Shown here: positions 2,085 to 63,252 of the stretch, in pieces
How the letters are laid out: each line of letters begins with the position of its first letter
How positions within the stretch are numbered: the first letter of the stretch is position 1
Source of the DNA: Streptomyces sp. NK08204
GTDB lineage: Bacteria > Actinomycetota > Actinomycetes > Streptomycetales > Streptomycetaceae
Length of the DNA: 64,000 nucleotides
NCBI RefSeq assembly: GCF_020400585.1
Contig: NZ_JAINVF010000017.1
Span: 62,001 to 126,000, forward strand
Reading direction: 5' to 3'
The notes under the pieces: generated by a model
What the model was told of the DNA's origin: nothing
Databases searched by the model: none
Seen by the model: the letters and a program-made list of their open reading frames with translations, nothing else
Translations under genes and position numbers: made by a program

Positions 2085-2195
2085 CCCTGGGGACGAGGCC
2101 CGTACGCTCGGCGCCAGGATGCCGTGCTGCCGTACCTGATCGTGTTCGGCTCCTTCGCCACCGCACTGGCGCTCCTCACGCTGCTCGCGCGTGCC

Positions 2196-2291
2196 GTCCG
2201 GCGCCGTGGGGCGTCCGGCGCCGTGGGGCGTCCGGCGCCGTGGGGCGTCCGGCGCCGTGGGGCGTCCGGCGCCGTGGGGCGTCCGGCGCCG
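2196..2291 (+). repeat. 17-bp tandem repeat, about 5.6 copies
   Basis: The unit GTCCGGCGCCGTGGGGC is repeated without change at 2196, 2213, 2230, 2247 and 2264, with a partial copy from 2281. Since 17 is not a multiple of three, each gain or loss of a unit changes the reading frame of the small membrane-protein gene it lies in. The identical copies indicate recent expansion. Confidence 0.97.
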
Positions 2292-2358
2292 GTCCGGGCG
2301 CGGCATACGAGGAAGCCTTCCGGGCCAACAGCCGTGCCGCGCACCAGGAGATCCGGGC

Positions 2359-2452
2359 GCAGGCGGAGCGCAGGCGGAGCGCAGGCGGAGCGCAGGCGGA
2401 GCGCAGGAGGAGCGCAGGCGGAGCGCAGGAGGAGCGCAGGAGGAGCGCAGGA
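2359..2452 (+). repeat. 11-bp tandem repeat, about 8.4 copies
   Basis: The unit GCAGGCGGAGC (variant GCAGGAGGAGC) starts at 2359 and repeats every 11 bases to about 2450. Because three units equal 33 bases, every frame reads as an 11-residue Arg/Ala/Gly-rich repeat. Like the neighbouring 17-bp array it is frame-shifting. Confidence 0.97.
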
Positions 2453-2473
2453 GTCCGGCGGAGTCCCCGGACG

Positions 2474-2500
2474 GCCCCTTCCGCAGAGCCCGGAAGGGGC
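2474..2500 (+). terminator. hairpin at the end of the small membrane-protein gene
   Basis: A perfect 10-bp inverted repeat, GCCCCTTCCG and CGGAAGGGGC, with a 7-base loop lies just before the TGA at 2503. It has no U-tract, as is usual in Streptomyces, and could terminate the merR operon. Confidence 0.45.
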
Positions 2501-2779
2501 GGTGACGGCCCGCATCCGGCCCGTTCCGACGTGCCGGACTGCCTCGCCGGACTGCTGCGCACGCCAGTCAGCACCTTCACCCGGCAGGGTGCGGCCCGGC
2601 CGGCGGCACGGGCCCTGCGGTTCCCGCGGGCGGCACACCGGGCAGGGCGGACCTGCGGTTCACCGACGGGCGGCCCTCCCGCTCGCCGGACCTGACGGCG
2701 GCCGGTGTGCCGTCGAGCACGCGTGCACGGCCGGCCTGCGGGTCGGCGGCCCGGCGAAGGACCTGGTGCCCAGCAGCGG

Positions 2780-3373
2780 TCACCTGCACGAGGGCTGAGC
2801 GAGGACGCCGTCCAGGCGGAGGTTCCAGCGGCCTGCGCGGCCCGTGACGGTGACCGCCGACAGCGGGCGTACGTCGATGTTCCAGTAGGTCGCGGGCGGC
2901 GCCTTCAGGGCGTAGACCAGGGCGGCGCGGATCACCGACGGCTCGGCCACGGCGACGATCCGCCCGCCGTCGCCCACCGGCCGCGTGCCGAGCCAGCCGC
3001 CGACGCGGGTGATGAAGGCCAGCAGCGACTCGCCGCCGTGCGGCGTGGAGCGCGGATCGGCGAGCCAGGCGTCCACCGCATCCGGCTCGCGGGCCATCGC
3101 CTCACCCAGGGTCAGCCCGCGCCAGCGGCCCATGTCACAGTCGCGCAGCGCGAGCTGGACCAGCGGGGCGTACCCCAGGGCGTCGCCGGTGGCCCGGCTG
3201 CGCGGGGTCGGTGAGCAGTAGCGCAGCTCGGCCGCCGCCAGCGGCAGCAGGACCCCGGCGGCGCGCTGCACCTCGTCCCAGCCCGCCTGGTCCAGCGGCC
3301 GGTCGTCCTCGAAGCGCTCCGCGAGCAGCGGGGAACTGCGCGCGGCGGCGACGAACGTCACCCTCAGTGGCAT
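2780..3373 (-). CDS. histidine phosphatase superfamily protein lacking catalytic residues
   Basis: 197 residues (ATG at 3373). The fold follows the phosphoglycerate mutase-like family: an N-terminal strand, ELRYCSPTPRSRATGDALG (the usual S-x-x-x-R-x-x-x-T-A segment), a HGGES turn and a late AVAEPSVIRAALVYAL segment. The N-terminal RHG catalytic signature is replaced by FVAAARSSPLLAE, and the second catalytic His, normally in a T-H-G-G-V-I-R context, is Glu-Pro here. The phosphohistidine chemistry should therefore be lost, leaving a pseudoenzyme or a protein of altered function. Related Streptomyces proteins sit with cobalt-transport genes; no such genes are seen here. Confidence 0.75.
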   Translation of the reverse strand: MPLRVTFVAAARSSPLLAERFEDDRPLDQAGWDEVQRAAGVLLPLAAAELRYCSPTPRSRATGDALGYAPLVQLALRDCDMGRWRGLTLGEAMAREPDAVDAWLADPRSTPHGGESLLAFITRVGGWLGTRPVGDGGRIVAVAEPSVIRAALVYALKAPPATYWNIDVRPLSAVTVTGRAGRWNLRLDGVLAQPSCR

Positions 3374-16853: not shown

Positions 16854-18530
16854 TCACTGGGCGAGATACGCCGGTGCGCTCACGGGCAGGGTAAATCGGA
16901 ACTCGGCGCCGCCCCCGGGGGCGCGGCCGACCGTGATGAGGCCGCCGTGGGCCTCGACGATGCCCTTGACGATGTAGAGCCCGAGGCCCGTGCCTCCGCG
17001 CTTGCTGCCCCGCCAGAAGCGGGTGAAGACGCGGTTCATGGACTCCTCCGGGATGCCGGGCCCCTCGTCGCTCACCGTGACCGACGTACCGGTTTCCTCG
17101 CCCTCGCGGGGGGACGCCGAGGGCGTGACGTCAATGGTGACGGTTCCTTCGCCGTGCCGCACGGCGTTTTCGAGAAGATTGCTCAGCACCTGGTCGATCT
17201 TGTCGGGGTCGGCCCACAGGTCGGGCAGCGGCTGGTCGATGCGGAGCAGGAAGCGGTCGGCGGGCTGGCCGGCGGCGACGTACGCCTGGATGTGCCGGGA
17301 GACGGCCGCGCCGATGTCGACGGGCTGCCGGCGCACCTCGAGGCGTCCGGAGTCGATCCGGGAGATGTCGAGGAGCTCGGCGATGAGGCGGGTGACGCGG
17401 TCGGCGTCGGCATCGACGGTCTCCAGCATCAGCCGCTTCTGGTCGTCGGTGAAGCGTTCCCACTTGGCGAGGAGCGTGGCGGTGAATCCCTTGACGGAGG
17501 TCAGCGGCGAGCGCAGTTCGTGGGCGACGGTCGCGATCAGCTCGGCGTGGCTGCGTTCGGTGCGCCGACGGGCCTCGGTGTCCCTGAGCGAGACGACGAC
17601 GCGCCGCACGGGGCCCAGGGGCTCGCCGCGCACGTACCGGGCGGAGACGAGCACCTCCCGGCCGCCGGGCAGCAGCAGATTGCGCTCGGGCTGCCGCACC
17701 CGGATCGCGAGCCCCCCGTACGGGTCGGTGAGCTGCCACCAGCGCCGCCCCTCCAGGTCCTCTAAGGGCAGCACCTTCTCCAGGGGCTGCCCGAGGGCCT
17801 CCGAGGCCGGTACGGCGGTGATGCGCTGGGCGGCGGCGTTGAAGCAGACGATCCGGCCACGCTCGTCGGCGACGACGAGCCCGTCGGGCAACTGATCGGG
17901 ATCGACCCCGAACCCGACCTCTGTGCAGCCCCCGACCACGGTGCGAGCCTCCGCTTCGGTACGGCCCCCGGCCACTACTTCGGTACGGCCCCCGGCCACG
18001 GTGCGATCCTCTGCTTCGGTACGACTCCGGGGCTCGGCGCGGTCCCGGGCCTCGGTACAGCCCCCGGACCCGATGGCGTCCCCGGTCTCCGTGCGACCCC
18101 CGGACTCGATGGCGTCCCCGGTCTCCGTGCGCCCCCCGGACCCGATGGCGTCCCCGGTCTCCGTGCGCCCCCCGGACTCGACACAGCCCCTGGGCTCGGC
18201 GCGGCCCCGGACACCGGTACGCCCCCCGGGCTCGATGGCGTCCCCGGTTCCCTTGTGAGTCTTGGTCCCGGTTCGGCCCCCGGGCTCGGGGCGAGCCTCA
18301 GCCCCGGTGCCATCGCCGGCCTCGATGCGGCCCCCGGGCTCGATGGCGTCCCCGGTTCCCTTGTGAGTCTTGGTCCCGGTTCGGCCCCCGGGCTCGGGGC
18401 GAGCCTCCGCCCCGGCGCCGTCGCCGGCCTCGATGCGGCCCCCGGGCTCGGTGGCGTCGGCGGGTCGGGGCGTGGGTGTGCGGCGTGCGTCCCGGTCTTC
18501 CGGTGCAGCGCTCGTGCCGGCCACGCTCAT
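16854..18530 (-). CDS. soluble PAS-domain sensor histidine kinase with repeated N-terminus
   Basis: 558 residues. Residues 1-205 are low-complexity and repetitive, built of PGGRTE/GDAI-type units. Residues about 210-320 form a PAS domain (DGLVVADERGRIVCFNAAAQ). The dimerisation/phosphoacceptor helix contains His337 in LIATVAHELRSPLTSVKGF. The ATPase domain shows the N-box (NLLENAVRHGEG, 451-462), DEGPGIPEE (488-496) and GGTGLGLYIV (512-521). No membrane helix is visible, so it senses a cytoplasmic signal. No response regulator is adjacent; the kinase lies between the rplT cluster and pheS, as in S. coelicolor. A TAGGGT box at 18581-18576 may give it its own promoter. The repeats, not the kinase core, are what is unusual here. 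Confidence 0.92.
   Translation of the reverse strand: MSVAGTSAAPEDRDARRTPTPRPADATEPGGRIEAGDGAGAEARPEPGGRTGTKTHKGTGDAIEPGGRIEAGDGTGAEARPEPGGRTGTKTHKGTGDAIEPGGRTGVRGRAEPRGCVESGGRTETGDAIGSGGRTETGDAIESGGRTETGDAIGSGGCTEARDRAEPRSRTEAEDRTVAGGRTEVVAGGRTEAEARTVVGGCTEVGFGVDPDQLPDGLVVADERGRIVCFNAAAQRITAVPASEALGQPLEKVLPLEDLEGRRWWQLTDPYGGLAIRVRQPERNLLLPGGREVLVSARYVRGEPLGPVRRVVVSLRDTEARRRTERSHAELIATVAHELRSPLTSVKGFTATLLAKWERFTDDQKRLMLETVDADADRVTRLIAELLDISRIDSGRLEVRRQPVDIGAAVSRHIQAYVAAGQPADRFLLRIDQPLPDLWADPDKIDQVLSNLLENAVRHGEGTVTIDVTPSASPREGEETGTSVTVSDEGPGIPEESMNRVFTRFWRGSKRGGTGLGLYIVKGIVEAHGGLITVGRAPGGGAEFRFTLPVSAPAYLAQ
18072..18179 (-). repeat. 36-bp in-frame tandem repeat in the histidine kinase gene
   Basis: Three units of 36 bases start at 18072, 18108 and 18144 and encode a 12-residue repeat of the form ESGGRTETGDAI. 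Adjacent units differ by only one or two bases. Confidence 0.93.
18228..18460 (-). repeat. 108-bp in-frame tandem repeat in the histidine kinase gene
   Basis: A 108-base unit begins at 18228 and again at 18336, with a partial third copy from 18444. It encodes a 36-residue repeat beginning DAIEPGGRIEAGDG and ending HKGTG. The two full copies differ at only a few positions, so the duplication is recent, and since 108 is divisible by three it lengthens the protein without breaking it. Confidence 0.95.
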
Positions 18531-20379: not shown

Positions 20380-21030
20380 TCACGCCTCGGCGGGCTCCTC
20401 GGCGGGCGCCTCGGCGGGGGCTTCGGCATCGGCAGCGTTCTGCGAGCGGCCGGGGTTGGCCTTCGCCTCCGCCTTGCGGGCCTCCTGCGCCTGACGGGCC
20501 TCGGCCATCGCCTCGGTCTTCTTCTTGTGCGGACCGAGGACCATGATCATGTTGCGGCCGTCCTGCTTCGGGTTCGACTCGACGAAACCGAGGTCCTGGA
20601 CGTCCTCCGCGAGGCGCTGCAGCAGCCGGTAGCCCAGCTCGGGGCGGGACTGCTCGCGGCCACGGAACATGATCGTGATCTTGACCTTGTCGCCCTGCTT
20701 GAGGAACCGGACGACGTGACCCTTCTTGGTGTCATAGTCGTGCGGGTCGATCTTCGGCCGGAGCTTCATCTCCTTGATGACCGTGTGCGCCTGGTTCTTG
20801 CGCGCCTCACGGGCCTTCATGGCCGACTCGTACTTGAACTTCCCGTAGTCCATGAGCTTGCACACGGGCGGACGGGCGTTCGCCGCGACCTCGACCAGGT
20901 CCAGGTCGTACTCCTGCGCAAGCTCCAGTGCCTTGGCCAGCGGGACGATGCCCACCTGCTCGCCACTGGGACCGACAAGTCGCACCTCGGGAACGCGAAT
21001 CCGGTCGTTGATGCGGGGCTCGGCGCTGAT
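20380..21030 (-). CDS. infC: translation initiation factor IF-3, probably starting at ATC
   Basis: 216 residues if translated from the ATC at 21030-21028, four bases after a perfect GAGGAGG. The N-domain begins [20 protein letters not shown], and the C-domain contains [20 protein letters not shown] and [16 protein letters not shown]; a charged Ala/Glu/Pro tail follows, as in other Streptomyces IF-3. No ATG or GTG lies in frame near the ribosome site; the frame is open further up but with implausible composition. IF-3 binds the 30S subunit and rejects non-canonical start codons, so a rare start on its own gene gives autoregulation, known for E. coli infC (AUU). The operon continues with rpmI and rplT. 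Confidence 0.95.
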
Positions 21031-23951: not shown

Positions 23952-25606
23952 GAGGGCTGCTCCGTGGCCGTGCTGACGGTCTGGCGCAGGCGTCGCTGGA
24001 TGCGGTCGGCCAGGCCCTGGGCCTCGTTGCCGAGGCCGGACTGGGCGGCCGGCGTGGTGGCGCCGGAGCGGACGGCGTCCGCGGCGGGCTGGGGCGAGTC
24101 GACCTTGCGGCCGTCGGCCCAGCCGGACACGGCGTAGGCGACGACGGGGGCGTCGGTCAGGACGGAGACGGTCCAGGAGGCGCGCTGCCGGTCGCCGAAA
24201 CCGGCCGCGGCGGTGCCCTCGGCCGCGTACGGGCGGGGCATCAGGTCGGCGCGGCGGTCCAGGTGCTCGTCGCGGAAGCGGGCGGCGAGCGCGGACATGG
24301 CGGCGGGGTCGGCCTTGGTGAACATCAGGCCGACGGTGGTGACGTAGCTCTGGGTGGAGTCGGCGTAGGTGGCGCGCAGCAGCCGACGGCAGCCGACGGG
24401 GGCGAGGGCCTTGCGCAGCAGCGGGTCGAAGGCGTGGGCGCAGCCGCTGTCGGGGGCGACGGCGATCCGTGTCCAGGTGCGGTCGGCACCGCCGGGTCCG
24501 GCGCCGGTGCCCTGGACGGTGGGCGGGAACAGCTGGTCGACGGGCACGCTGTGCCACAGCGTGCCGGCGGCGCTGAACCCCTTGCCGGTACCGCCGTCCT
24601 CGCCGCCTCCGGTGAGCCAACTCCCGGTCACGGCACCGCCGACGAGACCGAGCCCGAGCACGAGACAGGCCGCGGCAGCGACGGTACGGGTCCGTACGCG
24701 CCCGCGCGGCCCGCGCGTGTCCGGCTCCGCGAACGACACGACGGGCCGGGCCGCCGCGGCGGCGCTCCAGGACAGGGCGGGGCCCGGCGTGCCGGTGGCG
24801 GCAGTCCGGGGAGCGCCGGGGTGGGCCGGGGCCGACGGACCCCAGCCGGGGGCCGCGCCGGGCACCCGGGGGGCGCCGGTGCCGGAACCGGCGGTGCCGG
24901 GCCCTGCGGTGGCGGGTCCCGGGGTTGCTGCGGGAGCGGCGGGGCGGGCCGGGGGCGCTGGAGCGGACGGTGTGCCGGCATCGTCGGTCGGCCCGGGTAC
25001 CGAGGGCACGGGGCGCAGCCGGGTCGTCGTCTCCGACGGGGTTTCCTGTGCGGCCGTGGGGCGGCTGGGCTCCGGTCCCGGGCGGTGGGGCAGGCGCGGA
25101 GAGGACGTCGTACCGGCGGGGCCCGCCGGGAGCGGCGGCATGTCGGGAAAGCGGGCCGAGGCAGGTGGCGGGGGCGGGCTGACGGGGGCACCGGCCTCGG
25201 GCACGGCGGACGGCCCCGAGGGCCGCGCAGCGCGCGGGGCGAAGACGGACGGCTCCTCGTCGGGACCGGGCGCGGCATCCAGGGCGCGACCGGTATCGAG
25301 GGCGTGGTCGAGGCGGGCGCCGGGCTCGGCAAGCGGCAGGGCGGGAGCAGGAACGCCCGGACGAACGGCAGGGCCCGAGCCGGTACCGGGGGCCGCCGAG
25401 GGCCCGGACGGAGTCGGCGCGCCGGGACGGGCGGCGGGGTCGAGGGCGGCTTCGCCCGGGGTGAAGGCCGGCCCCGCCTCGGTGCCGTCGCCCGTTCCCT
25501 GGGGAGCCGGGGGCGCGGGCGGTGCCGACGCGGTGGCGGGGGTGTTGCCCGGGGGTGGAGCCGATGGGCGAGGCGGGACCGGGGCGCGGCGCGCTTCCGT
25601 GCTCAT
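23948..25606 (-). CDS. Pro/Ala-rich membrane protein coupled to the mycosin
   Basis: 552 residues from the ATG at 25606. Residues 1-310 are Pro/Ala/Gly-rich and probably disordered in the cytoplasm. One membrane helix (TVAAAACLVLGLGLVGGAVT) follows a basic stretch, and the remaining about 215 residues are extracytoplasmic, with two or three Cys (SGCAHAFDP ... VGCRRLL) that may form a disulphide. The topology, with a disordered cytoplasmic part and an exported domain, recurs in Streptomyces next to mycosin genes. The four-base overlap with the protease gene indicates co-translation. Function is unknown. Confidence 0.75.
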   Translation of the reverse strand: MSTEARRAPVPPRPSAPPPGNTPATASAPPAPPAPQGTGDGTEAGPAFTPGEAALDPAARPGAPTPSGPSAAPGTGSGPAVRPGVPAPALPLAEPGARLDHALDTGRALDAAPGPDEEPSVFAPRAARPSGPSAVPEAGAPVSPPPPPASARFPDMPPLPAGPAGTTSSPRLPHRPGPEPSRPTAAQETPSETTTRLRPVPSVPGPTDDAGTPSAPAPPARPAAPAATPGPATAGPGTAGSGTGAPRVPGAAPGWGPSAPAHPGAPRTAATGTPGPALSWSAAAAARPVVSFAEPDTRGPRGRVRTRTVAAAACLVLGLGLVGGAVTGSWLTGGGEDGGTGKGFSAAGTLWHSVPVDQLFPPTVQGTGAGPGGADRTWTRIAVAPDSGCAHAFDPLLRKALAPVGCRRLLRATYADSTQSYVTTVGLMFTKADPAAMSALAARFRDEHLDRRADLMPRPYAAEGTAAAGFGDRQRASWTVSVLTDAPVVAYAVSGWADGRKVDSPQPAADAVRSGATTPAAQSGLGNEAQGLADRIQRRLRQTVSTATEQPS

Positions 25607-29267: not shown

Positions 29268-29292
29268 GTGGTGACCTTTCACAGACGTTCGC

Positions 29293-29352
29293 CTCGCAGG
29301 CGTTCGGCTCACAGGCGTTCGGCTCACAGGCGTTCGGCTCACAGGCGTTCGA
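29293..29352 (-). repeat. 15-bp tandem repeat across the glnA4 stop codon
   Basis: Four 15-base units begin at 29293, 29308, 29323 and 29338. On the coding strand each contains the final Glu-Arg-Leu codons and TGA of glnA4, so the true stop is in the unit at 29338 and the remaining copies lie in the spacer before the aldehyde dehydrogenase start. Confidence 0.95.
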
Positions 29353-62715: not shown

Positions 62716-63252
62716 CCTGGGTGGGTGTCGATTGAAACCCCTAGATCACAATGACTGTCAAGGTGTGTCGTCGGTCACCCGGTGCGCTCCCTCCCGCACG
62801 GAGGGGATACCCACTCAACGTGATTCAGAAGCGGGTTGTTCCGTGTCCAGAGTGGTCAATACCCGTCAGGACTGGCCGGAGTTGTCCGTTCCAAGCTGGT
62901 TGGCCCGTACGCGGGCAGCCCGCAGGGCGCTCGCACGGTCATCACGCAGAGCGACGGTTCGGGCGGGCGATGTCACGGCGGGTGCGGCGTGAAGTGATCG
63001 CCCTGCGGCTGGTGCCCCCTTCTGGCCGGGCGTCGGGTGTGCCCTGCCGGCCGGACGCCGGTGTGTCTGCCGGTCGGGCGCTGGTACCCCGGCGGGCGTG
63101 GGCGGAAACCCGTGGGACCGGGACATGTGGCCGGATGTGGTCGATCACGGCGGGGCGAACGGCGAGGGTAGGGTCTGGGTGTTCGACAACCGCTGGAGCG
63201 GACCCGGCCGGCGATCGCGCCGGGGGCGCCCGGTGAACCTACGGCAGGAGAG
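62716..63252. other. intergenic region between arc and the ferredoxin gene
   Basis: No convincing gene is seen in these 537 bases. The right part holds GGTAGGGTCTGGG at 63167-63179, with TAGGGT at 63169-63174, a likely -10 box for the ferredoxin gene, leaving a leader of about 70 bases. Confidence 0.45.

Follow-up and report, generated by a model that had tools for sequence, protein, structure and literature searches.

Two frame-shifting tandem arrays in a small membrane-protein gene of Streptomyces, with decay better supported than phase variation

Introduction

Repeat-driven phase variation in Streptomyces is represented by pglX of Streptomyces coelicolor, in which an 8/7-G tract undergoes measured reversible switching, as described in the available part of that report (PMC4365076). 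Frame shifts of mixed kinds scattered among homologues characterize the GeneTack pseudogenes, and the accessible text of the same study gives two pointers to phase variation, namely a tandem repeat close to the frame shift and a cluster with at least five frame-shifted genes, and further asks for a function that had already been linked to phase variation (PMC3711429). Apart from pglX, the literature, judged by titles and the beginnings of abstracts, yielded no case of switching by tandem repeats in Streptomyces; no literature on DUF6314 was found.

The window analysed here is a 64,000-nucleotide stretch of a Streptomyces genome, in which a small gene for a putative membrane protein is interrupted by two tandem arrays. 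The locus resembles pglX in that the length of a repeat inside the gene decides the reading frame. It differs from pglX, as far as the available text on the latter goes, in its long-unit arrays, its lost start codon and its dead partner gene, and in being known from sequence alone. Like the GeneTack pseudogenes, as the accessible text presents them, its family carries mixed kinds of frame shift scattered among homologues, but the shifts in the window arise by tandem expansion rather than by single-base indels.

Results

Arrays and reading frames

Tandem Repeats Finder (TRF) found in the window a 17-bp array of 5.7 copies with 100% match (score 194) and an 11-bp array of 8.6 copies with 96% match (score 169), copy numbers that may be misassembled given that the genome of the window (G000) is a draft in 112 contigs. 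The arrays are 65 bp apart, and they are evidently those which an earlier note on this DNA had described with 5.6 and 8.4 copies. The 17-bp copies are all identical, the 11-bp array is built from two unit types, and the two have the highest TRF scores in the window among periods not divisible by three. The features of the locus are collected in Table 1.

Table 1. Features of the disrupted locus, in window positions.
Feature	Position	Strand	Basis
TACGCT, predicted -10 box (TAnnnT) of a leaderless gene	2103-2108	+	Comparison of homologue upstream stretches; consensus in the available parts of PMC4895711 and PMC3160421
Lost predicted leaderless start; reads CAGG where homologues have ATG	2115-2118	+	Homologue upstream stretches
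Gene piece 1, membrane helix; earliest remaining in-frame start GTG 2124	2124-2194	+	Profile positions 2-38, E 2e-11; list of open reading frames
17-bp tandem array, 5.7 identical copies, 68-bp frame shift	2195-2291	+	TRF
Gene piece 2, AYEEAFRANSRAAHQEIR, in another frame than piece 1	2292-2356	+	Translation; profile match
11-bp tandem array, 8.6 copies, 77-bp frame shift	2357-2451	+	TRF
Gene piece 3, SPDGPFRRARKGR and stop (2503-2505), in a third frame	2452-2505	+	Open reading frames; ending PDGPFRR as in L123
DUF6314 remnant overlapping the small gene, about 146 bp missing, frame-shifting gaps	2503-2798	+	DNA alignment

The translations place the helix, AYEEAFRANSRAAHQ and SPDGPFRRARKGR in three different frames, as had been noticed before. 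Relative to a homologue-like state, the 17-bp array has four extra units (68 bp) and the 11-bp array seven (77 bp); both excesses are 2 mod 3, so that one unit fewer in each array restores a single frame, in agreement with the earlier arithmetic. The product of 117 residues expected from that arithmetic is not what the homologues suggest. Removal of four 17-bp units and seven 11-bp units gives 78 codons and a stop in frame, and the joined pieces align with eight intact homologues. A profile built from five homologues (A1) matches the two halves of the gene in two frames with E values of about 2e-11 each, so the likeness to a split gene is not due to chance; the match of piece 1 runs into the 17-bp array. 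The span first proposed, 2124-2505, is indeed disrupted, but it does not delimit the lesion, since the start codon and the neighbouring gene downstream (to 2798) are hit as well.

The small membrane-protein family

Leads to homologues came from a flank search over 392 genomes and a search with the 29-residue helix over 199. In the homologues, the helix, an RRRG linker, AYEEAFRATSHAAHHEIRAQAER and SPDGP share a single reading frame of about 80 codons. The alignment of orthologues suggested in the earlier note thus reveals a continuous frame through all three segments, and a real gene has been disrupted by the arrays. The five-homologue profile has matches in 81 of the 392 genomes, that of the window included; fragments are counted here, as is at least one match that is evidently false (G194). 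Matches that begin at model position 1 and reach position 70 or beyond define 67 distinct full-length homologues.

The nearest named homologue among the matches listed is L123 of Streptomyces griseoluteus, with 67% identity in the best segment, which in the joined window pieces spans residues 2-71; the contig scan that named it covered at least 18 loci and possibly left out records very near the window. The window and L123 have in common the order of the segments, the ending PDGPFRR and a location beside DUF6314 and histidine phosphatase genes. The window copy, however, has no ATG and is split by the two arrays, whereas L123 is intact and array-free.

No family scored above threshold in Pfam, NCBIfam or PADLOC for the small proteins queried, with a sub-threshold PPE match for L051. 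The family is one of uncharacterised Streptomyces small membrane proteins for which no Pfam or NCBIfam family was found. An AlphaFold2 model of L123, made with 20 homologues (mean pLDDT 76, pTM 0.38), has two helices, at residues 4-31 and 34-63, separated by a break at the glycine linker, and a loose tail, and the product is presumably a membrane-anchored helical protein. In this model the 17-bp array maps to the linker break and the 11-bp array to the end of the second helix.

Start codon

A TAnnnT hexamer lies 6-8 nt 5′ of the ATG in 56 of the 67 distinct full-length homologues, at a spacing of 6 or 7 in 55 of them, and the other 11 have none at spacings 4-9; among shuffled upstream stretches, 0.6% have the hexamer at spacings 5-7. 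This arrangement is that of leaderless actinobacterial genes in the available parts of PMC4895711 and PMC3160421, and the start of the family is predicted to be leaderless. Over L042-L140 the leaderless-type promoter 5′ of the family ATG is strikingly conserved.

In the window the hexamer is kept and the ATG is not. The one ATG left, at 2119, does not lie in the reading frame; the earliest in-frame start is GTG 2124, 15 nt past the hexamer. Since AUG starts 76.4% of leaderless mRNAs, according to the accessible text of PMC4895711, a start at GTG is possible, and GTG 2124 could be a working start.

The downstream DUF6314 partner

Downstream of the small gene at homologous loci lies a DUF6314 gene, whose start codon overlaps the stop codon of the small gene (as GTGA in L123, for example); a convergent histidine phosphatase gene comes next. 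The GTGA junction is retained in the window. Its DUF6314 remnant, recognised by DNA alignment only, has 298 bp (2501-2798), compared with 441-444 bp in four intact genes. A 51-bp deletion recurs in all four pairwise alignments, and the other gaps shift place with the alignment partner. At the curated cut-off, the PF19834 (DUF6314) profile has no match in the draft G000 and one in each of the four comparators; the 14 control genomes searched likewise gave no match, which leaves the four comparators as the working control.

In the second half of the gene, the third-position share of differences is 0.36 in total (0.25-0.46 per pair) between the window and 11 intact genes, against 0.58 in total for the 55 pairs of intact genes, whose range (0.36-0.74) overlaps that of the window. 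From these comparisons, the window DUF6314 is a truncated and apparently neutrally drifting remnant.

The small gene itself does not follow this pattern. In its 237 bp outside the extra units, the third-position share is 0.43-0.53 relative to eight intact homologues, without sign of relaxed codon constraint, the intact pairs giving 0.36-0.54; the same 237 bp contain no stop and no further frame shift. With the codon pattern still constrained, either the arrays expanded recently or the gene is still used.

Uniqueness of the arrays

The two arrays are absent from the 93 other homologous gene regions, where the best TRF score is 76, as against 194 and 169 in the window; among the 94 regions in all are fragments and one or more false matches. 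A sequence of two 17-bp units, searched with at most two mismatches, occurs in one of 392 Streptomyces genomes, that of the window, in a sample of one genome per species outside which near sister species may lie. All five of its occurrences there fall within the array. Tandem pairs of the 17-bp or the 11-bp unit were found at 4 of 173 loci, all four from the genome of the window. A dispersed repeat element was considered and rejected, the two-unit 17-bp sequence being confined to its array in its own genome and the 11-bp unit having been checked in the 173 loci.

Presence and breakage at other loci

Among the 29 phosphatase loci that match best (L008-L036), 3 have the membrane gene. DUF6314 lies in one frame at 27 of the 29, is split at L034 and is cut by the sequence end at L035, whose genome (G196) lacks any match to the family. 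L010, which has the closest CMD neighbour (96%), is without the membrane gene, and apparently only the tail of the gene is left at L012. Beside DUF6314 and the phosphatase, the membrane gene is intact at eight distinct loci (L042, L045, L046, L051, L057, L091, L123 and L132) and broken at three (the window, L072 and L073), a tally in which L133 is taken as a repeat of L057 and a copy in G183, cut by a contig end, is left out. At L123 the DUF6314 and phosphatase genes adjoining the intact small gene are intact too. Copies elsewhere are broken at L074, L075 and L077, and the genome of L074 also has an intact copy, L087.

Five family members are thus frame-shifted (the window, L072, L073, L074 and L077). 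Of the broken copies, L072 has its lesion at a run of 7 G, L073, L074 and L077 carry small indels, and L075 has an insertion of roughly 230 bp. Programmed frame shifting, suggested by members split near the same linker, was rejected, as the lesions differ in kind. Presence at 3 of 29 loci and breakage of other types support the small gene being dispensable, as judged from these genomes.

Two of the broken copies have features of their own. In L072 (G369:C1:2138900-2141400, minus strand) the frame is lost at about 1296-1321, near the 7-G run in the linker, while the ATG is present, both halves match the family and the adjoining DUF6314 is intact; the frame loss could reflect a G-tract switch like that of pglX, a mutation of recent origin or, in this one-contig genome, a homopolymer error. 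In L075 (G389:C39:1705600-1708300, minus strand 1238-1473) the insertion that interrupts the homologue may be a small mobile element.

Discussion

These observations raise the question of whether the arrays switch a gene on and off or mark the death of one. Both possibilities had been put forward in the earlier note, and of the two, decay by repeat expansion is the better supported, whereas phase variation is unlikely with the arrays absent from the 93 other regions, the ATG lost and DUF6314 decayed. We favour decay on the ground that the arrays are unique, the ATG is gone and the DUF6314 partner seems to have decayed neutrally. It is very probable that the locus represents the ordinary decay of a small membrane gene and its overlapping DUF6314 gene, in the course of which the start was lost and the arrays grew. 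The inactivating lesions are independent of one another and comprise the lost ATG, the two frame-shifting arrays and the truncated overlapping partner.

The arrays grew from two short direct repeats that the homologues do not show. The seeds may have been a 12-bp repeat 17 bp apart and GCGCAGG present twice, 11 bp apart, with expansion through replication slippage or unequal exchange. Such expansions would have persisted because, with DUF6314 lost, the pair had become superfluous. The codon pattern of the small gene and the identity of the 17-bp copies suggest that DUF6314 was lost first and that the arrays are recent.

If this were a contingency locus, slippage in the two arrays would toggle the membrane protein, and the sequenced genome would hold its OFF state. 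Units of 17 and 11 bp do break the frame, one fewer in each restores it, and two arrays in one gene, each a single unit from in-frame, look switch-like too; yet two independent arrays would leave about 1 in 9 copy-number combinations in frame, which makes a poor switch. The remaining coding sequence looks constrained, but the predicted leaderless ATG is lost and the overlapping DUF6314 appears to be a dead remnant. Phase variation is known in Streptomyces from the pglX G-tract (available part of PMC4365076), and five members of the present family are frame-shifted, L072 at a 7-G run; against this, the arrays are missing from the 93 other regions and the two-unit 17-bp sequence from the other 391 genomes. 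In terms of the pointers in the accessible text of PMC3711429, the five members might amount to a cluster of the size named there, whereas arrays occur in the window alone and the family has no assigned function that could have been tied to phase variation. A contingency locus is accordingly improbable, and equally improbable is a two-array form in which the 17-bp and the 11-bp units each switch, independently of the other, a small membrane protein translated from GTG 2124.

An assembly or sequencing artefact, with true copy numbers that differ and a gene that is intact, is very unlikely: the arrays are GC-rich and repetitive and the draft is fragmented, but both arrays would need to be wrong together, and the lost ATG and the DUF6314 remnant are independent of them. 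Arrays of 97 and 95 bp are, moreover, shorter than ordinary reads. The 224-codon frame that is open from GTG 2124 to 2798 might be taken for a new functional gene, in which the helix is fused to an arginine/proline-rich tail. We regard this as extremely unlikely, for the 224-residue frame has no Pfam match at E values up to 1, no like tail occurs in the homologues compared, and all three forward frames are open across the arrays, as easily happens at 78% GC.

On the favoured reading of ordinary decay, the locus would be an unusually clear snapshot of the death of a dispensable gene pair, with the partner gutted and the small gene shifted by fresh tandem growth while its codons still look normal. 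Frame-breaking repeats in high-GC genomes should be checked against orthologues, start codons and neighbours before they are labelled contingency loci. The unnamed family with its conserved leaderless-type start may prove more useful than the repeat.

The window holds further arrays. Those of at least 2.5 copies that were examined in evident genes, a set that excludes the 15-bp array at 24877, have periods divisible by three; from their translations, we take the genes to be histidine-kinase-like (16854-18530, minus strand), an IF-3-like tail (20383-20427) and an aldehyde-dehydrogenase-like start (29279-29351). Between evident genes lies a 23-bp array (63017-63085). Part of the N-terminal region of the presumed histidine-kinase-like protein is GGRTE-rich and is encoded by long nested repeats at 18042-18458 with periods of 18, 36, 54, 72 and 108 bp. 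Five 15-bp repeats at 29279-29351 encode the SRTPV-like repeats that open the presumed aldehyde-dehydrogenase-like frame, the true start of which may lie downstream of them. Finally, positions 340-1200, which lie between a cut transporter-like frame and the MerR gene, have a lower GC content (0.62-0.70), show no evident gene and are possibly another decayed stretch.
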